DNA from: Paraescarpia echinospica
Taxonomy: Eukaryota > Annelida > Polychaeta > Sabellida > Siboglinidae
Assembly: GCA_020002185.1 (NCBI GenBank)
Contig: CM034541.1
Coordinates: forward strand, 29,723,345-29,787,344
DNA: 64,000 nucleotides
Reading direction: 5' to 3'
Shown here: positions 19,947 to 36,334 of the stretch, one piece after another
Layout: every line of letters starts with the position of its first letter
Numbering within the stretch: position 1 is the stretch's first letter
Translations under genes and position numbers: made by a program
Notes under the pieces: model-generated
Told to the model about the DNA's origin: nothing
Databases searched by the model: none
Seen by the model: the letters and a program-made list of their open reading frames with translations, nothing else

Positions 19947-21094
19947 GTTCGAGCGTCAGGTCGACTACTTCTAGGGAGATTTCGCCAGATCCTAGACACC
20001 GACATTGAAGATATTATCGCCAACAATGCAATGGACATGCAGCAAAGGTTCTACGGGTTAACAACTACCGAACTCCGACAAATGGCCTTCCAAGTGGCTG
20101 AGTACAAAGGCGTCGCACACCCCTTAGGTCAAACCAAAAAGATGGCTGGTCGACACTGGCTAGCAGGATTTCTTGCCAGAAACGGAACACTCTCTATTAG
20201 GGAACCGGAAACGAAGAGTATAAATCGGGCAGTCGGATTCAATAAGGCACAAGTCGATAATTTTTTCGATATATGGAGGTCGCTTCTTGAGAGCATTGGG
20301 CCAATAGATGGTGACAGAATCTGGAACATGGACGAGAGCGGCTTAACGGTTGTGCACAAACCTGGGAGAATCGTCGCGAAAAAGGGTCAGAAACAGGTTG
20401 GAAAAGTGACGAGTGGCGAAAGGGAAAATGGTCACTATCATATGCAGCATGAGTGCAAGTGGGCGTTATCTCGCACCATTTAAGATCTACCCGAGGAAGA
20501 AAATGAACGAGCACTTGCTCGTTGGCTGTCCACCTGGTACAGTGGGAGTGGTGACAGACAGTGGCTGGACAGACAGCAAAGTCTTCGTGCAGTGGTTGAA
20601 TCACTTTGTCGATGCGGTCAAATCGACGCCTGCCAAAGAACGCGTGATGCTGCCTGACGCAGTTGCCTCCACATCGACTGGCCGCACTACACCAATGACG
20701 CCTATAAACACGTTCATTTACGGCATATTACCACTCCCCAAGGCTGGGTAAACGACGCTTCCAGTCTGCAGAACATCTCACGTCATCGCCATACAAGGAT
20801 AATCTGCGAGAAAAACATCAGCAACTGAACGAGAAGCTTGAGAGGCAAGCCAATAAGCAGACATGCAAGAAATCCACCAAGCGCGAACTGCACAAGGGCA
20901 AAGAACGAACCACTGTCAAGCACGTGCGTAAAGCTGGTGCGACCCCTACGAATGAAGAATACAGGTGCATCTATTGCAGTGAGCTCTATACCACGCCACC
21001 AACAGAAGATTGGCTGCAATGTCCATTGTACCGCCAATGGTACCATAAAAAGTGTGGAAACGAGAAATCCGCATGCGACCTTTGCATGCAGTAG
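19947..21094 (+). pseudogene. pogo transposase exon 2 (CENP-B HTH, partial DDE, PHD-like finger)
   Basis: The exon reads GRLLLGRFRQILDTD, then FYGLTTTELRQMAFQVAEYKG and HWLAGFLARNGTLS (CENP-B-type HTH). It continues with the start of the DDE nuclease: RIWNMDESGL supplies the first catalytic Asp and KPGRIVAKKG follows. A one-base shift near 20,430 leads to VTIICSMSASGRYLAPF and GWTDSKVFVQWLNHFV. After VML (about 20,650) the expected DGHxSH segment with the second Asp is missing and the text resumes near LPPH. The tail has a Lys-rich linker and a C-terminal finger (CIYC...WLQC...WYHKKC...CDLC), stop at 21,092. The protein cannot be active. Confidence 0.85.
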
Positions 21095-26091: not shown

Positions 26092-26185
26092 TAGTAGTAG
26101 TAGTAGTAAATGTTTATTTTTCCAACAAAAGATACATACAGTGTATATGGTATATCAGAATGAGTATGTCAGTATGTTAGAAATT
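26092..26185 (-). mobile_element. Short LINE 3'-tail insertion
   Basis: A (TAG)n run followed by TAAATGTTTATTTTTCC interrupts the LINE between DRI and RNFLWKK. Read on the minus strand it is a 3' UTR end with an (ACT)n tail, as in the tail of the surrounding LINE at 33,449. GTATCATTAG and GTATGTTAG at the two edges resemble a target duplication. Confidence 0.55.
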
Positions 26186-26749
26186 TTCTCTGGAAAAAAA
26201 TTAGTAACTTTAACATACAAGGAAAAATGCTTGAGGCTTTGAAATCATTATGTGTTGATTACAAATATTGTGTTAGGGTCAACAACTTAAAGTCTAACTG
26301 GTTCAATGTTGAATGCGAGCTTAAGCAGGGATGTGTTCTATCCCCTATCATGTTCAATATGTTTATAAGCGATTTATCAGCTGAATTGAAAGGCACGGGT
26401 AAAGGTGTTAAGATCGGAGACGAAATTGTTACAATGTTATCATACGCAGATGACATTGTGTTGCTGGCCGAATCAGCAGAAGAACTGCAGACATTGATAA
26501 ATGTTATTTGGAAATTGTGCAATGACTGGGGCATGTCTTTTATCAAAGACAAAACTCAAATTGTACATTTTCGTAATCCATCAATATCTGAGACTTCTTA
26601 CGATTTTCTGCTAGGTGATCAAAGCATATGCATCGTAAATAAGTATACATATTTAGGTTTGATTTTAACTGAATACCTTGATTATAAGGTGATGGTTAAA
26701 ACAGTAGCTACTACGGCGAACAGAGCTCTGGGTTTGTTAATGGCTATAT

Positions 26750-26993
26750 TGTGCGCGGCACTTACTTGGGCAGGCACAATGGTGTAGCCCGCAGCGTAGG
26801 CCGAAGGCCGACGGGAGCGTCTCCTCGATGAGGGGCTGTGCTTCTCGGCGGCGGCGGCAATACGGACTTCTGGCTATTGTGTAGCACGGGTATTTATAGG
26901 GTGTGTGTGTGTGGGTGTATTGTTAGGGTGTAATGCGGATGTGCGTACTTATTTTGTGTGTGCGAACTATTTACAGTGTAGCTCCGCACTACA
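26750..26993 (-). repeat. 3' LTR (244 bp, TG...CA)
   Basis: On the minus strand it starts TGTAGTGCGGAGC and ends GCCGCGCACA. It has four CGG triplets, against eight in the other LTR; otherwise I see no difference. ATAT on the left and T on the right are also shared with the other LTR. Confidence 0.95.
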
Positions 26994-27001
26994 TTCCCCC
27001 C
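26994..27001 (-). promoter_or_regulatory. Polypurine tract
   Basis: GGGGGGAA on the minus strand directly before the 3' LTR; the expected plus-strand primer site. Confidence 0.8.
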
Positions 27002-27649
27002 AATCATAAAAACAACGGGATATATTACGACAAATATGTATGCGGTATTGTATGCAGATAGTCGTGAATTATGTATGGATAATTACAACATAAAATATAT
27101 ACACTAAATGTGACCGGTTAACCAAAACCTGAACGCCGACTAGCATCTCAGGCAAAGGCTTCACTCAAGTCTCAATATTTGATATTTAGGTTATTTCCTT
27201 TTTACATTTAATTAAACCATTTACGTAAACCCGAACACCGACGTAATATTGAACTATTTAGGGTAGTTCATTATAAATACATTTAATTAAAAAAAAACCA
27301 ACCACCATTATTTTAACACTTGTATAATAAAGCAAAACGAACTTATTGAAAATTAAACTTCGCTCCCAATCATTATAAGAATCTATACATAACTTATATG
27401 TAGACCCCTGACACCGACAGGTGTCTCAGGCATCATGTACTACGTGAGTACGTCCCATATACTACGAGTACGTCCCGAGTACCGACGAGTGCCTCAGGCA
27501 TCATACACTACGTGAGTACGATATACTACGTGAGTATATATACACGAAAATATGTATGTTCTAGAACCCGGACACCGACAAGCGTCCTAGGCTGTGTTTG
27601 TGCGTGTGTGTATGCGTGTTAGAATATCCTACGGCTAGATGAACAGGAA
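27002..27649 (-). other. LTR element spacer downstream of ORF2
   Basis: No open frame. It contains a repeated motif around TCAGGCATCATxxACTACGTGAGTACG (27,430-27,530; shown in consensus form), two to three imperfect copies, just upstream of the polypurine tract region. Confidence 0.6.
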
Positions 27650-29608
27650 TTACTCAGTCATCATATTCCACGAATGTCTGCATGGGCAGCCTTCGGTGGA
27701 ACAAGACTGACGGATCATCCTGACCCTTGAACTGTGTACATTCTCCATTTTGTCGTAACCAACAAAGCAGACAGCAACGCTATTGCTACTTGCAACAGTC
27801 GTGGTCACCGTCGCTGCCGTGCACCATTTCTCGTCATAAGGGAACTGTGTTTCGCAAGGCATGCTAATCAGCGCTCCGCAATTGTCATCGTTAGCGATTT
27901 TGTCCGTCTGTAGGGGAAGTTCCATCATTGAAAGTCTTGTTTGTAGGCACCGGAAGTTGTGTGGCGATACGGGTGAGGACACATGGACTTCGTGCGTCTC
28001 ACTTGGCTTTAATGGTGTACCCTTGTACCTGACAACATCCGACTCTTTGTCATAGAGACTACAATCGACGGTCGTTCTCTCACACCTGTTGATGGCACCT
28101 CTCAACCGAGTAGTACCCATTTTTTGCTGAGGCACTGACCCGCCAATGACGTCAGTCATCTTTGCGGCATTTGAGTCATATCTGGTGACGTCAGTCATCT
28201 CCGCGTCAACTCCGTCGAATCGACATGCCAACGCTTCGATTGGCAATGTGACGGACTCCGTGTGTAGCCACTGCATAGAGAAGTCGCCGTTGTCGATGTA
28301 TTCCATGGACACATTACCCGTGCCTGTGTCAACCCTGGTGATACAAGTGATATGGTCACAACAACGTCTCCTCTCCCTTCTAGATTTGTCATCCTGACCA
28401 CTACACCAACTCTCCTCCCTGACAAACGTTTGAGATGCATAGTAATCGTGCATTTCAACAGGCAAATGGGTCAACCTGTCGTCCCGCAGAAACTCATCCG
28501 CGTTAGCAACTTGCGCATTGTCAGTGTTGTTGTCACCGCTGTCATTGTTTTCAGTTTCTTCCGAGAATTCTGGTTTGTTTCTCAGCTCCCAGTTGTTACC
28601 TGTCTCACCGAGAGGCGCGTCATTGAGCTGCTCCGACAATCGTGTCAATGCAGTCTCGTCACCCTCCAGTTGACACCAGAATTGGGCTGATGATACACAC
28701 GCCTCCATCGTGCGACCAACTGAGTCCGCCCGAGACATACTCAAGTTGTCATTGTGCGGTCCGGTATCGGCTGTCTTACTGTCCCCGTCGTCCGGCGACA
28801 CCTCCGCAGTTGGCGTTATTCGTTCCGGGAAGTGGGACGCGATATCAGCTGTATCATCCACAGGCGGTGCTCCAGTGTGTCCCATGTTGTCTCGTCCTGG
28901 GTCAATGTGTGTGACTAGGTTGGAGTCAGGGTTGGCATGTGTTCTAGCGAGTGACGTCATCGTATCTGTCAAGTCGCCTGGAGCGATGACTGCAGTTACA
29001 GACCGCATGTGTCCGTCACACACCAATACGACTCCCGGGTATTTACCATCAACATGTTTACAGGATTCGTGCAAGACTACGCCTGTTCTGATCTTAGCAT
29101 TCACCTTGACTTTCGTATCCAACGGTACGGTGATTTCTGGGTACCGCATGATAACAGGTAAAAATGTTGGCTTGAGTACATTGACGTCAGATGATATCAT
29201 ATACTCCAGCTTTGGTTCGACCACGATCTTTTCTGTGTGTGTTTTGGGCATGTATCTGTTTTCCTGACGTAACGAGAGACAATCTAGGTAGCTATCTTTT
29301 TGTGAGAATAGTTCACGTTTCATGCCGACTGGAGTGTATGTGTGAACTAGTTCAGGATCATGTAGCTCATAAGTCTTGTGTTTAATAGTGCCGGAACCGA
29401 CTGGTTCCTGACACTTGTCAATCTCTGACGGACTTGTTGTTTCATGGCGACCGACAGCATGAGGTGAAACATATGTGGCGCGTAACATTTCGTCTTCAGA
29501 CGCTACATGTCCCGCTGACATTGACAGCCTTCTACCTAGAACAGCATTTTGACTACTGATGCTAGTGCTAGATGGGCGATTTCCTAGCGAACAGGAGGGC
29601 CCATACAT
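27650..29608 (-). CDS. Tudor-like ORF2 of the LTR element (652 aa)
   Basis: This intact ORF starts with ATG 50 bp after the gag stop, but the same frame is open upstream into gag, so a Gag fusion by -1 frameshifting is likely. No RT, RNase H, integrase or clear protease is present. A DTG at 426-428 lacks the hydrophobic lead and AxxS-like follow-up of retropepsins. Residues 301-470 look like an extended Tudor domain: VSSAQFWCQLEGDETAL...LSEQLN, later VSMEYIDNGDF and LPIEALACRFDGV. Residues 538-633 look like a second: HEVHVSSPVSPHNFRCL, then the barrel FPYDEKWCTAATVTTT, NSVAVCFVGYDKMENV and RVRMI. The canonical Tyr-Gly-Asn turn is altered to YDK. Tudor folds bind methylated arginine ligands, often in piRNA granules; that role here is inferred. 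The N-terminal 290 residues are unrecognised. Confidence 0.75.
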   Translation of the reverse strand: MYGPSCSLGNRPSSTSISSQNAVLGRRLSMSAGHVASEDEMLRATYVSPHAVGRHETTSPSEIDKCQEPVGSGTIKHKTYELHDPELVHTYTPVGMKRELFSQKDSYLDCLSLRQENRYMPKTHTEKIVVEPKLEYMISSDVNVLKPTFLPVIMRYPEITVPLDTKVKVNAKIRTGVVLHESCKHVDGKYPGVVLVCDGHMRSVTAVIAPGDLTDTMTSLARTHANPDSNLVTHIDPGRDNMGHTGAPPVDDTADIASHFPERITPTAEVSPDDGDSKTADTGPHNDNLSMSRADSVGRTMEACVSSAQFWCQLEGDETALTRLSEQLNDAPLGETGNNWELRNKPEFSEETENNDSGDNNTDNAQVANADEFLRDDRLTHLPVEMHDYYASQTFVREESWCSGQDDKSRRERRRCCDHITCITRVDTGTGNVSMEYIDNGDFSMQWLHTESVTLPIEALACRFDGVDAEMTDVTRYDSNAAKMTDVIGGSVPQQKMGTTRLRGAINRCERTTVDCSLYDKESDVVRYKGTPLKPSETHEVHVSSPVSPHNFRCLQTRLSMMELPLQTDKIANDDNCGALISMPCETQFPYDEKWCTAATVTTTVASSNSVAVCFVGYDKMENVHSSRVRMIRQSCSTEGCPCRHSWNMMTE

Positions 29609-29658
29609 TCCACTTGTGGAATGGTCATCGCAGGATGATTTCTCGTCATAAGTGTAGA

Positions 29659-31044
29659 CTAGAGATTGATCGTTGTAGGTATAATCATACGATGTGTATG
29701 GACGTCTTCCATTGTCAAATTTGTCATCTTCATCACACGATCCGATTCCTCCTTTTTCGTACGGCGTCTGAGAAGCTTTCGATTAATCTTGTTCATATCT
29801 TTTAGAGCTTTCCTAATCGACTTTGGATGTTTGTCACAAGCTGCTAAAGCTATTTCGTTCTCCCTAACACCCTTGAGGAACAGCTTTGCGGCATATTTAG
29901 TTACGTCTTTGTTTCCTGTCCCTCTATATCTCCTTTTGACGGCATGATGAACACGATCAGCGAAGTCTTCCAAAGATTCGCCGACTTCCTGCTTCATATC
30001 TTGGAGATTGCGACGCACAAGGCTTGGATCTTCTTTTGTTTCAAATTTGCTCTTCAAGCGTTTCATGAGCCTTCGATAATCGCTGCAAGTCTTGCGGGAA
30101 CGGGTCCGGATGTAATCAAGTGCTTCGTCGGGCAAGCATTCCTTTAGCCTCTGTAGTTTTTGGTAACTACTCCAGTGATAATATTTTGCAGCACGCTTAA
30201 ACAGGTGTAGAAATGTGTCCCATTCTGTGGATGTTCCTGAGAATGTAGGTAAATTGGGTCCATTGGTTTTGTCATGTGTGTGATGCCCATCGGTTGTGTC
30301 GTGTGTGTGATGCCCATCGGTTGCGTCGTGTGTGTGATGCCCATCGGTTGTGTCGTGTGTGTGATGCCCATCGGTTTTTGGTGTGGTGTCGATTCCTCCC
30401 ATTGGTTCGCGTTTCACACCGACTGGAAGATTTGTGTTGCTAGTAGGTTGAAGTGGGGTATCCTTCCTGCGTGCTTCTTGTCCCAACAACCGCGAGGGAC
30501 CGTAGCTGTATATGCCATCCTTTGGATGCGCATCAAGGAGAGGTTTATCATAAAAAGGATGACCCATTGATTTGGAAGGGCTCTTATACTCCATGTTCTT
30601 ACTCTCATACATTTCCCATCTCATTTCACCTCCTATTTCCTGTGACCGGCGTCTATTCATTGTGTGATCCCATTCTTCCATCTCCCTTCTCATGGTTTCT
30701 TCCAGTTCTCTTCTCTTTACTTCCCTCACCCTCATGAATTCATACTCGTCAATACCAAACCTGACCCTGTTTGATCTCTCTCTTTCATATTCTTTGATTT
30801 TGCAATCCCTCTCATCAAGTTGCGCATGATATTGTGCTTCCATCCTTTCCAGTTTATCTTTTAACATCTCTACCTCAGAATCACATTCTAGCGAAACAGT
30901 CGCTTCCATTGGATGCTCCTCTAGACTAATCCGTCCTGTTTCCAGTAAGTTTTTCCAAAAGGTGGTAGTAGCATCCGAGACTGTCACTAAATCAGAAATT
31001 TCTATTTTGTCCTTCTTCTTGAGATTCAGAGAGCATGTTGACAT
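29659..31044 (-). CDS. Gag protein of the LTR element (461 aa)
   Basis: This intact ORF starts at the first ATG after the leader. Residues 53-145 are charged and heptad-like (KLERMEAQYHAQLDERD...RRELEETMRREMEEW), probably a coiled coil for multimerisation. Residues 223-259 are four 9-residue TDGHHTHDx repeats. Residues 265-420 resemble the retrotransposon Gag/capsid fold of Metaviridae-like elements: PTFSGTSTEWDTFLHLF, LQRLKECLPDEALDYI, LKSKFETKEDPSLVRRNL, ESLEDFADRVHHAV. No CCHC zinc knuckle is present; the C-terminus is merely basic (KLLRRRTKKEE). It should form the cytoplasmic RNA-packaging particle. The frame overlaps ORF2 through a possible -1 slip site at 29,716-29,722. Assignment to the Gypsy-like group is by pattern. 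Confidence 0.85.
   Translation of the reverse strand: MSTCSLNLKKKDKIEISDLVTVSDATTTFWKNLLETGRISLEEHPMEATVSLECDSEVEMLKDKLERMEAQYHAQLDERDCKIKEYERERSNRVRFGIDEYEFMRVREVKRRELEETMRREMEEWDHTMNRRRSQEIGGEMRWEMYESKNMEYKSPSKSMGHPFYDKPLLDAHPKDGIYSYGPSRLLGQEARRKDTPLQPTSNTNLPVGVKREPMGGIDTTPKTDGHHTHDTTDGHHTHDATDGHHTHDTTDGHHTHDKTNGPNLPTFSGTSTEWDTFLHLFKRAAKYYHWSSYQKLQRLKECLPDEALDYIRTRSRKTCSDYRRLMKRLKSKFETKEDPSLVRRNLQDMKQEVGESLEDFADRVHHAVKRRYRGTGNKDVTKYAAKLFLKGVRENEIALAACDKHPKSIRKALKDMNKINRKLLRRRTKKEESDRVMKMTNLTMEDVHTHRMIIPTTINL
29716..29722 (-). promoter_or_regulatory. Candidate -1 frameshift heptamer A AAT TTG
   Basis: In gag phase the codons read ACA AAT TTG (residues 441-443). X XXY YYZ pairing allows a -1 slip into the ORF2 frame, which is open from well upstream of here to the ORF2 ATG and beyond. 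The gag stop follows 18 codons later. Confidence 0.55.
30269..30380 (-). repeat. 27-bp tandem repeat within gag, four copies
   Basis: Encodes TDGHHTHD plus one variable residue per unit; copies differ by single bases only. Confidence 0.9.
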
Positions 31045-31838
31045 CTATATGCGTGTAAATGTAAGTGTAAATGCCAAACTGTGTATACAAAGTAATGCCT
31101 ACTATTTAACGACGTTAGTGGCACTGTTGATTCAAAAATTAGGTAATTCAAATAAAACTGAACAGTGCAGCTCAGATATTTTAGAAAATCAATATAATTG
31201 CACAATTACCAACACGTTTTAGTGAGAACAGTAAACAGTATCACGCGATAGATGCAATACAATTACGTCCGCGATAATACCCAATTAGTAGATTCGGAAA
31301 GTAAACTACGTAGTATAACTTCACATAATCCCACCAAAAATATAGCTTGATTTATGATGAACAAGAGTGTCATAAACACGATAAATTCTTAAAAAAACTT
31401 AAGAAAGAATTCAATTATAAAGCTACCCGTGGGTCATGTAAACACCACGGCGTGATCAAAGGGTTAAACCCAGTTCGAATCAGCTAGCAGTCGCGTAGCA
31501 ACCGACGGCGACGCGCGACGCTGGTTGTATGCTGCCAGCGACCACGCCCGTATACTGGTTGTCCCGACGTCAAATTGTAATTGTAGAACTTTCAAATAAT
31601 GTTCAAATAAGCGGTTGAATATTGCTATATGATAATTAGCAGAACTTATATCACGTATAATTACTTCATATTATGCGTAGACAGAACCGGCAGATTCCTA
31701 TCATACGCACAGGAAAATTGGCGCGTAAATGTTTAAACAATTAACGCTTGAAAACCGACAGGTTTCTCCTGGTTAATTGCGCGTAGAATATAAATTGTTT
31801 AACATGGAACGATAACGCAGATTCGCTAGCAGAAATAT
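31045..31838 (-). other. LTR element 5' leader
   Basis: About 790 bp between the primer-binding site and the gag ATG, with no long open frame. It includes a CG-rich patch at 31,480-31,560. Confidence 0.6.
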
Positions 31839-31856
31839 ACCCTGCTCGCAGCGCCA
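31839..31856 (-). promoter_or_regulatory. Primer-binding site, tRNA-Ser-like
   Basis: Minus strand TGGCGCTGCGAGCAGGGT starts four bases (ATAT) after the CA end of the 5' LTR. Its complement, CCTGCTCGCAGCG plus CCA, resembles the 3' end of metazoan serine tRNAs. Confidence 0.7.
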
Positions 31857-31860
31857 ATAT

Positions 31861-32116
31861 TGTGCGCGGCACTTACTTGGGCAGGCACAATGGTGTAGCC
31901 CGCAGCGTAGGCCGAAGGCCGACGGGAGCGTCTCCTCGATGAGGGGCTGTGCTTCTCGGCGGCGGCGGCGGCGGCGGCGGCAATACGGACTTCTGGCTAT
32001 TGTGTAGCACGGGTATTTATAGGGTGTGTGTGTGTGGGTGTATTGTTAGGGTGTAATGCGGATGTGCGTACTTATTTTGTGTGTGCGAACTATTTACAGT
32101 GTAGCTCCGCACTACA
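31861..32116 (-). repeat. 5' LTR (256 bp, TG...CA)
   Basis: Direct repeat of 26,750-26,993, longer by exactly 12 bp in the CGG tract (31,958-31,981 region). It precedes the primer-binding site in the direction of transcription. Confidence 0.95.
32014..32021 (-). promoter_or_regulatory. TATA box in 5' LTR
   Basis: TATAAATA on the minus strand, flanked by CCC on both sides; the same box is at 26,891-26,898 in the 3' LTR. Likely U3 core promoter of the element. Confidence 0.65.
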
Positions 32117-33300: not shown

Positions 33301-33448
33301 TACTGTTTTTATTTGTACATTTTTGTTTTTACAAGTCTCTCATAACTCTTTTTGAGTGGTCTTTGTATACAATGCTAACTTTGAATCTAATGTATTTATT
33401 TGTCTTGTATTTTAATGCTTGTATACGTGGAGTGAGACTAATAACAAA

Positions 33449-33511
<63 letters not shown>
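33449..33511 (+). repeat. (TAC)n tract, probable LINE 3' tail
   Basis: About 21 triplets directly after the LINE 3' UTR; LINEs of several clades end in such short repeats. Confidence 0.9.
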
Positions 33512-33599
33512 ATACAACACACGTACAACACACACACAAAACATACAAAACACACAGAACACACACACAATACACATACACACAGACCACACACACACA

Positions 33600-33639
<40 letters not shown>

Positions 33640-34005
33640 CGTACACACATACAAAACACATACAATACGCATACAACACCCACAAAAGACACACAACACA
33701 CACACACAATCAACACACAAACAACACACATATAACACGCACACAAGAAACGCACACGTAACACACTCAACACATTCACGCAGCACACACACATGCACGC
33801 GCACACTCACACACACACATGCTCGCACACCCCATACACACACGCGCACAACCCCGCACGCACTTGTACCACACCACACACGCATATATACACGCACACA
33901 CACACACACGAAAAAACACGTGCGCACGTTTGGACACACTTACACTCGCATACACACGTACCACACTCAAGCACGTACACTCGCACACACATACTCTTTC
34001 TAGAA
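33512..34005 (+). repeat. CA-rich cryptically simple region
   Basis: Almost only A and C on this strand, with ACACAC, ACAAAACAC and a (CGCA)n block at 33,598-33,641. The long open frames on both strands are repeat artefacts. Confidence 0.95.
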
Positions 34006-34039
34006 AAAACATACCCTAACTATGTGATATGATTTGTGA

Positions 34040-34300
34040 GGAGTTCACCTTACAGGTTAGTGGGTGGTACACCTTGTACGTTAGTGATCAGTTCACCTTG
34101 CAGGTTAGTGGGTAGTATAGCTTGCAGAATAGTGGGCAGTACACCTTACATGTTAGTGGGAAGAACACCTTGCACGATAGTGGGCAGTATAACTTGCAGG
34201 TTAGTGGACAGTATACATTGCAGGTTAGTGGGCAGTATAGCTTGCAGGTTAGTGGGCAGAATAGCTTGCAGTTTAGTGGGCAGTACTCCTGTTGGGTTTG
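34040..34300 (+). repeat. 24-bp minisatellite, about 10 copies
   Basis: Units like CTTGCAGGTTAGTGGGCAGT plus four bases, diverged at 1-4 positions. The period is a multiple of three, so both strands stay open (LVGSxxCR and ILPTNLQx repeats), which does not show coding. Confidence 0.93.
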
Positions 34301-34365
34301 TTGAACTGAAAAAAATAATTTGTTTGACAGTTGACAAAACAAAATATTTTATATGTAAGAACATC

Positions 34366-34475
34366 AAATAATAAACCGTCGTTCGCTACTGTCAACAACA
34401 GCTGGTTTTTATTAGGTCACCAAGTACACACTGTGTTTTTGGTGTATAAGCCAAATGTAAGCACATATGTTTAAC
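34366..34475 (+). repeat. Dispersed repeat R, copy 1
   Basis: Shares ATAAACCGTCGTTCGCTACT and GGTCACCAAGTACACACTGT with copies near 41,935-42,036 and 43,015-43,120. Confidence 0.9.
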
Positions 34476-34539
34476 ATAACTCCTACAATATTGTGTTTGC
34501 ACAAGATTTATTGCATGCATCCATCCGCTATCACGACTC

Positions 34540-34806
34540 ACTGGATTATCCGGCCCCGGACCACTTGATGTCACATGCACCCATACAACATTATACCTCG
34601 GCCGATTATTCGACCCGGAACACTCAACAGGATATGCAACCATACGCTATATAGATTCGACCGATTATTCGGCCCTAATCACTCGACGGCACATGTATCC
34701 ATACGTGATATAGATTCGGCCGATTATTCGGCACGAAGCACACGATGAAACATACAACATACAGTATATCGACTCGGTCGATTATTCGGCCCGGGACACT
34801 CAACAA
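34540..34806 (+). repeat. 59-bp tandem repeat with GATTATTCGGCC core, five copies
   Basis: Core positions at 34,544, 34,604, 34,663, 34,722 and 34,780 (spacing 58-60). Copies also share CACTCGAC and CATGxATCCATACG elements. Confidence 0.9.
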
Positions 34807-34819
34807 CCTCGTCCTATGC

Positions 34820-35670
34820 ATAGTTACCCTTAATTACCCCTTAATTACCTATAACAGTGTCGCTCAATATCACACACTATACAATTCTTAAAAATCAAAC
34901 AGGTATTGTTTTGAACAACAACACCATTAGTATTGTATAATAAACTGCCGTATTAGTCACTAACTAAGAACAACCTAGTCATAACTACAACATACCATTC
35001 CACTATACTACAACAACTATAATACGTGTCCATCTATAACTACAAAGCAAAAGGTAGCATTAACTCTGAAACCCTTAACCCTTAATTACCCATTAATAAA
35101 CCCTAATTACACCTTACTTGCCCCTAATTACCCACAATTACCCCTTAATTACCCCTTAGTTACCCCGAAATACCCTTAAATAACCTTAAATACCTTTAAT
35201 TACCCCAAATTACCCTTTAGATACCCCTAAATGCCCTTAGTTACCCATAAAAAAGAGGTAGTCATCAACCGTCCACCACTCCTCCTCCCTTACACGCACA
35301 CGCACGGACACACTAAAACAACGTCCACGCATAATGATAGATGACCCTTACACTAGCATACATATAATAACACACAAAAATACTCCATTATTTCAGATAG
35401 AAAATTATAGAAAAAGAGCGGGACCAGATTTGACAGTTCTAACTACTCGTCGCTGATTGATCGACTTCATGCCATTAAAAAAATCTTAGTTACCCCTAAT
35501 TACCCTTCATTACCCACAATTAACCCTTAGTTACCCTTAATTACCCCTAATTACCTCTTAATTACCCTTAATATTACCCACAACTACCCCTTAATTAACC
35601 CCAGTTACCCTTTATTTGCATCTAATTACCCACTAATTACCTCTTGATTATCCTTAAATATCCGAAAACC
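34820..35670 (+). repeat. Degenerate CCTTAATTAC decamer-like array in two blocks
   Basis: At 35,075-35,250 and 35,480-35,670 nearly every 8-11 bases repeat a variant of CCCTTAATTACC or CCCTAATTACCC. A third patch lies at 41,447-41,530. The stretch between is ordinary AT-rich DNA. Confidence 0.8.
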
Positions 35671-36334
35671 AAACTTGGGGAACTTCCGGTGGTGAATTGG
35701 TTTGAATTTGGTGCAGCAAACTTGCGAAAATATAAGGATATTTGATCAAGATAAGTGATATTATTGAGTGTATAGCATACATAACGTAATTATAGATATA
35801 TGCAATATTTTTTGTTAAAAGTTAGCTAGAGGGAGTAATCTAGGGTAGATTAAAAGTAGGCGATTTGCGAGCGATAATTGGGGACGTTAAAGTAATCGGA
35901 ACGTTGTTTACAAAGTAGGTCACTGGCGAAGTTAACGTAACGTGAATGACAATATAATAGCGTTATTTGAGATAATCGATGTAGTTAGATGAGTAATTAA
36001 AACCTGAAATAACAACCTTTTAAAGTGTATATTAGTACACAGGAAACAGTCTTTGTAAAGACTACCTTATATCTAAGCCTAACTTGAATACATTGACATT
36101 GTCATCGACATCTTAACTAGGTAAGGCACGGTGTGTCACTGTATTTTAACAAATATAACTAACTATAACCTAAACAATCTGGTGTAAATTGTAAACAGAA
36201 AAGTCTTTTCAAAGACTATATAAAAACTATTTTGAACATAAATAAATTCTGATATGGTACCTTGCAAGCGGCGACTCAGGGCAAAACGACACTTAGTTTG
36301 CAACGACTGCCAGAGCTGGGTGGATTTTGCGTTG
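35671..36334. other. No gene recognised
   Basis: AT-rich noncoding DNA with no long frame. Confidence 0.5.

Follow-up and report, generated by a model that had tools for sequence, protein, structure and literature searches.

A 64,000-nucleotide stretch of the genome of the siboglinid annelid Paraescarpia echinospica (contig CM034541.1, positions 29,723,345 to 29,787,344; hereafter the window) contains a long terminal repeat (LTR) retrotransposon of about 5.4 kb, at 26747-32116 with its coding parts on the minus strand, in which Gag is followed by a 652-codon open reading frame (ORF) bearing two Tudor-type domains. The reading favoured here, with a probability of roughly 0.6, is that the element represents a helper-dependent Ty3/gypsy-type family in which a captured host Tudor scaffold has been fused to Gag in gag-onc-like fashion, with the Tudor part tethering to germ granules. 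As a Gag-Tudor transducing LTR element it is real and well supported by the sequence comparisons given below. An earlier note on this DNA had described an ORF without internal stop between Gag and the 3' LTR and had reported no reverse transcriptase (RT), integrase or RNase H. The ORF is present as described; a Pfam scan of the element's two frames (Gag and the 652-codon ORF) returned no pol family, and the pol pieces of a relative described below found nothing there either.

By profile comparison the ORF carries two domains homologous to extended Tudor domains (eTudor), as the earlier note had proposed. When residues 291-495 and 496-652 were aligned by hhalign with 18 Tudor repeats from multi-Tudor genes of the same genome, the E-values were 9.5e-6 and 2.9e-10, against 0.023 and 0.0012 for the best of 60 column shuffles each, 0.22 and 0.46 for the reversed profiles, and 0.24 and 0.86 for two Gag controls; the profile homology takes in both the core and the flanking halves of the extended domain. 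A profile of four solved eTudor sequences scored the window ORF at 24.8 bits in total and picked out residues 308-331, 430-464 and 585-635, the order expected of two extended Tudor domains. No sequence among 20,000 full and 20,000 block shuffles reached this total (maxima 14.9 and 12.5; 9,077 and 9,321 shuffles, respectively, were given any score), and over 85 window ORFs the frame of the 652-codon ORF scored 24.4 with the runner-up at 3.9. The single best profile stretches are individually weak, one block shuffle lying above 8.7 bits. Pfam TUDOR matched the window ORF at E=0.0017 (18.9 bits versus a 23-bit cut-off), a per-family expectation of about 7e-8 on division by 24,736 models, because the TUDOR family had been named beforehand. 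The isolated eTudor2 piece gave E=0.02, and other copies gave about 5e-4 (L009/L010, one insertion) and 5e-3 (L016). Lack of any Tudor profile match, set in advance as an outcome that would overturn the claim, is thus not what Pfam and hhalign returned.

Matches to the genome's own multi-Tudor repeats also support the proposed capture of a TDRD-like host gene. The best matches of eTudor2 are repeats of a multi-Tudor gene on C2 (L029), with z-scores of 11.0, 10.6 and 10.4, making it the best-scoring donor candidate for this domain among the 18 repeats compared; those repeats come from three fetched regions, out of 43 Tudor matches in the genome. Between the Gag-derived start of the ORF and the first Tudor domain, residues 107-290 gave a weak blastp match to a host Tudor repeat (E=0.009) that is unsupported by hhalign (0.85%), with reversed and shuffled controls as good or better. 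Assignment of residues 140-215 to a pol protease-RT linker was rejected, as the stretch resembles no part of the relative's pol at E<=1 and has no profile match. Outside the genome, a protein-database search with the whole ORF gave one match of 7,993 scored, a Gag, and one with residues 285-652 gave none of 2,511 scored. The Gag pair gave 6 matches of 7,993 scored. These database relatives are whole or partial Gags; a zinc knuckle occurs in several of them, and one is named from the tubeworm Ridgeia piscesae. Used as a single sequence against solved structures the ORF found just two unrelated chance matches (E=0.21 and 1.8); an NCBIfam scan of the ORF gave no match, and no relatives turned up in viral contigs scanned with the ORF, a Gag alignment and the Gag of a relative.

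The upstream frame is a retrotransposon Gag by two Gag-related Pfam families at or over cut-off, i.e. Retrotrans_gag (24.1 bits, cut-off 24.1) and DUF1759 (26.2 bits, cut-off 25.4). Its tandem repeat HHTHDTTDG, at window positions 30259-30378, varies in number and is longer in the printed copies than in the window. The related Gag P0002 begins, at residues 7-45, with a helix-hairpin-helix-like segment (Pfam HHH_3, E=4e-4, below cut-off), also precomputed for P0004. The stop-to-stop frame of the 652-codon ORF extends to 29782 and overlaps the end of Gag. Because the Gags P0002 and P0003 align there, approximately the first 75 residues of the ORF can be assigned to Gag's own C-terminal linker; the match ends at the motif CQEPVGSG, beyond which P0002 and P0003 go on into a zinc knuckle while the element diverges.

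Further copies with a Gag-Tudor arrangement are present within the same genome. Frame scoring covered 19 regions, three of which (L018, L022 and L023) were not scorable. The capsid end and the ORF start share one frame in 11 of the 16 scorable regions (10 of 15 with L009 and L010 counted once), and the two frames differ in the window, L013, L015, L019 and L021. The open frame runs to 1212 codons in one insertion (C797/C7) and to 1050 codons in the C11 copy before a break within domain 1, and a frame of 1145 codons is listed with one stop in the C5 copy. Since Gag and ORF share a frame in most copies, the native product is predicted to be a Gag-Tudor fusion whose common frame was lost in the window copy near the end of Gag. 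Host-derived coding sequence in frame with Gag and with pol lost, as in gag-onc genes, is accordingly a property of the family and not of the window copy, in which the frames differ. The earlier note had placed the ORF correctly, without seeing its strand, the Gag origin of its N-terminus or the common frame elsewhere. Its description of an ORF in place of pol holds in that pol is missing; the notion of a free-standing ORF after an intact Gag does not, the ORF being the C-terminal half of the predicted fusion. An intron between Gag and the ORF was rejected, as other copies read straight across, and a programmed frameshift in the window copy is not needed because most other copies are in one frame.

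A search of the 1.08 Gb genome with the window ORF gave at least 94 matching places at E<=0.001, in at least 46 clusters (within 8 kb), counts that are lower bounds as 68 of 219 candidates were scored; an LTR family defined by a Tudor ORF, as had been suggested, is therefore present. The window leader has at least 51 genome matches (40 of 112 candidates scored). Eighteen regions, under half of the 46 clusters, were fetched, two of which (L009 and L010) are the same insertion with flanks 99.7% identical over 300 bases. LTR sequence surrounds the coding part on both sides in ten and on one side in six, and L020 and L021 have no LTR within the fetched stretch. Matched protein pieces are about 36 to 99% identical, the low values being partly frame breaks; L018 retains 84-88% nucleotide identity over its matched pieces. 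By-eye inspection found 4-bp target duplications in 5 of the 6 copies with two fully aligned LTRs, and one of 2 bp in the window copy. LTR-LTR mismatch ranges from 0 to 4.8% across 6 copies, from which the family is seen to have transposed repeatedly and at different times. Such insertion is selfish behaviour and speaks against the element being a host tool, whose Gag-Tudor copies would poison a relative's particles or steer its RNA into PIWI-interacting RNA (piRNA) granules. That idea draws on the element's kinship with the pol-bearing relative in LTR, leader and Gag and on the plausibility of a Gag with a bulky fused domain as a poison; it is considered very improbable.

Selection was gauged by the ratio of nonsynonymous to synonymous differences (pN/pS) over 36 pairs, formed from the 9 distinct fetched copies whose ORF has one stop or none; L010, being the same insertion as L009, was left out. 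Both Tudors together gave 0.52, with a codon-bootstrap interval of 0.38-0.73 and 1 replicate in 2000 reaching 1 or more. For the same copies the ratio was 0.62 in the Gag N half, 0.64 (0.46-0.92) in the capsid, 0.64 (0.36-1.40) in the Gag linker and 0.77 (0.61-0.97) in the middle region. In the 5 stop-free copies both Tudors together gave 0.49 (0.32-0.80). Across all 19 copies, L009 and L010 counted separately, the median pairwise Tudor value is 0.57 and the mean synonymous divergence over all pairs is about 0.25. This result already strains the view that the Tudor segment is a passenger, i.e. a piece of host mRNA acquired by template switching and serving as a spacer in a Gag-only non-autonomous element: over that divergence, the Tudor point value lies under that of the capsid. 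For a passenger there are the stops or frame breaks in many copies and the loss of ORF residues 129-200, which are cleanly missing from the subgroup L015, L016, L017 and L024 with the flanking matched pieces sharing one frame. Plant LTR retrotransposons are also described as carrying host gene fragments (PMC3726574). On balance a passenger is improbable.

Enzymes would have to come from elsewhere, and a candidate source is present in the genome. A search with the P0003 Gag gave at least 115 matches (70 of 1,721 candidates scored), one of which, L033/L034 on C14, has a zinc knuckle followed by protease, RT, RNase H and integrase by Pfam; it is the one pol-bearing relative examined. Nucleotide identity between the window element and L033/L034 is 89-90% in the LTRs, 96-98% in the leader, 88% in the N part of Gag, 72% in the capsid and 76% in the Gag linker. 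The window leader matches L033 at 95.6% over 728 bases and 98.1% over 207 bases, and is equally close to L033 (95.6%) and to seven other Tudor copies (91.5-96.8%). Because the relative shares LTR family, leader and Gag and has pol, the pattern is as expected of a helper and a helper-dependent derivative, and L033/L034 is regarded as a candidate helper. The relative also bears on whether the ORF is a diverged pol, an outcome that the earlier note had named as one that would undo its claim and that the position between Gag and the 3' LTR might suggest. Against the relative only Gag and ORF residues 15-74 match; the relative's protease, RT, RNase H-integrase and integrase-C pieces have no match at E<=0.001 in any of the 19 regions (18 loci and the window element), and Tudor profiles match the ORF in the right order. 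A diverged pol is refuted on these grounds and retains next to no probability. The relative further has a TatD-type DNase ORF between integrase and the 3' LTR (L033:266-1321 and L034:4238-4600, both minus strand; Pfam TatD_DNase, E=1.5e-14); a full-text literature search found no paper with TatD in an LTR retrotransposon by title.

Like the extended domains of TDRD1, TDRKH and Drosophila Tudor, those of the element have N-terminal strands, a helix, a Tudor core and an LP.EA..C.F return strand in that order. They differ in a long acidic insert in domain 1 and in the replacement, in both domains, of the tyrosine and asparagine of the aromatic cage, at what we take to be the cage positions. The cage was scored against the aromatic and asparagine positions presumed for Drosophila Tudor eTud11. 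In the window copy, domain 2 has Cys596 for the tyrosine and Lys620 for the asparagine, which leaves 3 of 5 positions unchanged; in domain 1 Cys402 replaces the tyrosine, Asn440 an aromatic residue and Asp442 the asparagine, which leaves 2 of 5. Among rows where the residue could be called, both L009 and L010 included, the cysteine is kept in 13 of 14 (domain 1) and 13 of 15 (domain 2); the asparagine position is occupied by Asp in 10 of 11 rows for domain 1 and by Lys in 12 of 13 for domain 2. Neither domain thus has, at these presumed positions, the aromatic cage plus asparagine of a reader of symmetric dimethylarginine (sDMA). Because cage residues are replaced in both domains, canonical methyl-arginine reading by the element's Tudor domains is unlikely, and binding through a scaffold surface, or of an unmethylated partner or peptide, is more likely.

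Replacement of the cages with the rest of the core motif kept could also suit a Tudor part that is a structural substitute for the lost zinc knuckle, acting in particle assembly or RNA holding with no piRNA link. The Tudor part sits at the nucleocapsid position and shows purifying selection, both of which agree with such a role. Known extended Tudor domains are protein-binding scaffolds, no RNA-binding family appears in the Pfam scan of the ORF, and a Gag with zinc knuckle supplied in trans could already serve. A purely structural role is for these reasons held to be rather unlikely, though it is to be taken more seriously than a passenger.

Under the favoured Gag-Tudor tethering model, an ancestor would have transduced part of a host multi-Tudor gene, so that the Tudor part occupies the place of the relatives' Gag zinc knuckle, protease, RT, RNase H and integrase. 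The family would encode a single Gag-Tudor fusion, with the same layout as gag-onc genes in acute transforming retroviruses. Pol-bearing relatives that have its LTR family, primer site, leader and Gag would provide the enzymes in trans, and their common Gag could allow mixed particles. Since extended Tudor domains are known above all from germ-granule proteins of the Piwi pathway, germ granules are the leading target: the scaffold may tether Gag or its RNA to Tudor/Piwi granules, which could improve access to germline RNA or to sites of packaging, or shield the element in part from piRNA silencing. A piRNA-related function of the Tudor part is a strong hypothesis. The further step, in which a stolen scaffold of the piRNA machinery, welded to Gag, brings particles or RNA into germ granules to evade or blunt piRNA silencing as a counter-defence, is put forward tentatively.

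Several observations count against this model. Pfam TUDOR stays below its curated cut-off in all four ORF copies scanned (window, L009, L010 and L016), eTudor1 alone has no Pfam TUDOR match, and the AlphaFold2 model of eTudor2, made from a single sequence with no alignment, has a mean predicted local distance difference test (pLDDT) score of 43, too poor for use on the fold. The degraded cages weaken the usual route to Piwi proteins, and in the copy of the relative studied, pol is split among several reading frames. Among the 5 stop-free copies the pN/pS interval of each Tudor alone includes 1 (0.30-1.08 and 0.21-1.09), and in 9 more damaged copies the Tudors reach 0.70 and the capsid 0.90. 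Because pairwise pN/pS takes related copies as independent, the bootstrap intervals for the Tudor part, the capsid and the middle region overlap, and dead copies and frame breaks push the ratio toward 1, a fair statement is that the Tudor part appears to be under purifying selection and held about as firmly as Gag.

Gag-onc fusions are typical of acute transforming retroviruses of the v-abl and v-fes type. The element resembles them in that host coding sequence is fused to Gag, pol is lost, a helper is needed (here a candidate) and the whole is flanked by LTRs; it differs in being a retrotransposon with a germline-type Tudor scaffold and in the length of time over which the family has spread, its copies having reached a mean synonymous divergence of about 0.25. 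TR-GAG and other Gag-only elements are non-autonomous plant LTR elements and, like the window element, have LTRs, a primer site and Gag without pol, whereas the window family belongs to an animal host and has a selected host-derived domain fused to Gag. According to PMC9289625, orchid Ty3/gypsy elements have captured an AlkB N6-methyladenosine demethylase and so, like the window family, took up a host domain bearing on transposon control; AlkB is there an additional ORF of a 25-kb element, whereas the Tudor part belongs to Gag and takes the place of pol. Additional ORFs acquired by invertebrate LTR elements are likewise known from bdelloid rotifers, whose LTR retrotransposons include some with GDSL and DEDDy ORF3s (PMC5408684); unlike the Tudor part, those ORF3s stand beside pol, and the word Tudor is absent from that text. 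No LTR retrotransposon with a Tudor ORF was found among the matches listed in the full-text literature, which is weak evidence as few subscription journals and no transposon database were covered. LTR elements are known to capture host genes, and no printed precedent for the Gag-Tudor variant was found in the literature covered.

Whether animal transposons encode active countermeasures to the piRNA pathway is, to our knowledge, an open question. A selected, Gag-fused Tudor part together with a pol-bearing relative that has the same control sequences makes that question testable. The family would also extend the gag-onc layout from disease retroviruses to invertebrate retrotransposons and, if the proposed counter-defence is true, that defence would be built from the host's own defence organelle.

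Coordinates of the element and of the interrupted neighbouring frame are collected below. The LTR pair of the window copy has 0 mismatches in 249 aligned bases, the sole difference being a 12-base length change in a GCC repeat, and the insertion is therefore young. The primer-site stretch is the same or nearly so after the 5' LTR in all 8 other regions printed, and a similar purine stretch precedes all 8 of the 3' LTRs printed. The window element thus has the LTR pair, primer site, polypurine tract and short target duplication of a Ty3/gypsy LTR retrotransposon, and no pol of its own in the order protease, RT, RNase H, integrase. Its LTR, leader and Gag place it among the non-autonomous derivatives of Ty3/gypsy elements and not among the autonomous members.

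Table 1. Features of the Gag-Tudor element and its insertion site, in window positions
Feature	Position	Strand	Basis or remark
5' LTR, TGTAG...ACAATA	31858..32116	-	259 bp; direct repeat and sequence
Primer binding site-like stretch	31840..31856	-	starts TGG, complement of the CCA end of a transfer RNA (tRNA); one base past the LTR
5' leader	31045..31857	-	common to window element and pol-bearing relative
Gag frame, 461 codons, HHTHDTTDG-type tandem repeat and capsid region	29659..31044	-	Pfam Retrotrans_gag, DUF1759, PNMA; relatives P0002-P0007
Gag capsid-like region, about residues 263-420	29785..30258	-	Pfam matches inside residues 268-394; 72% nucleotide identity to L033
652-codon ORF, predicted Gag C-terminal linker and captured Tudor region	27650..29608	-	no internal stop
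ORF residues 11-75, Gag C-terminal linker	29384..29578	-	58% identity to P0002, 67% to P0003
ORF residues 107-290, between linker and Tudor domain 1	28739..29290	-	profile matches do not exceed controls
Extended Tudor domain 1, about residues 296-480, acidic insert	28169..28723	-	hhalign E=9.5e-6, probability 82.7%
Extended Tudor domain 2, about residues 526-640	27689..28033	-	hhalign E=2.9e-10, probability 96.8%; Smith-Waterman z=11.0; Pfam TUDOR below cut-off
Polypurine tract-like stretch	26994..27002	-	adjoins 3' LTR; sequence
3' LTR	26747..26993	-	247 bp; direct repeat and sequence
Left part of reverse transcriptase frame like that of a long interspersed nuclear element (LINE)	26164..26746	+	ORFs; LINE identity by eye

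The LINE-like RT frame is interrupted by the element, and reading resumes beyond 32116 as KTKCNGGMPFNCFTKLY at about 32118. To the right of the element, 33400-35700 holds long microsatellite-like frames, a 24-base tandem array and CCCTTAATTA-type repeats. Elsewhere in the window, an ORF at 20031-20483 resembles, by eye, a fragment of a pogo/jerky-type transposase.

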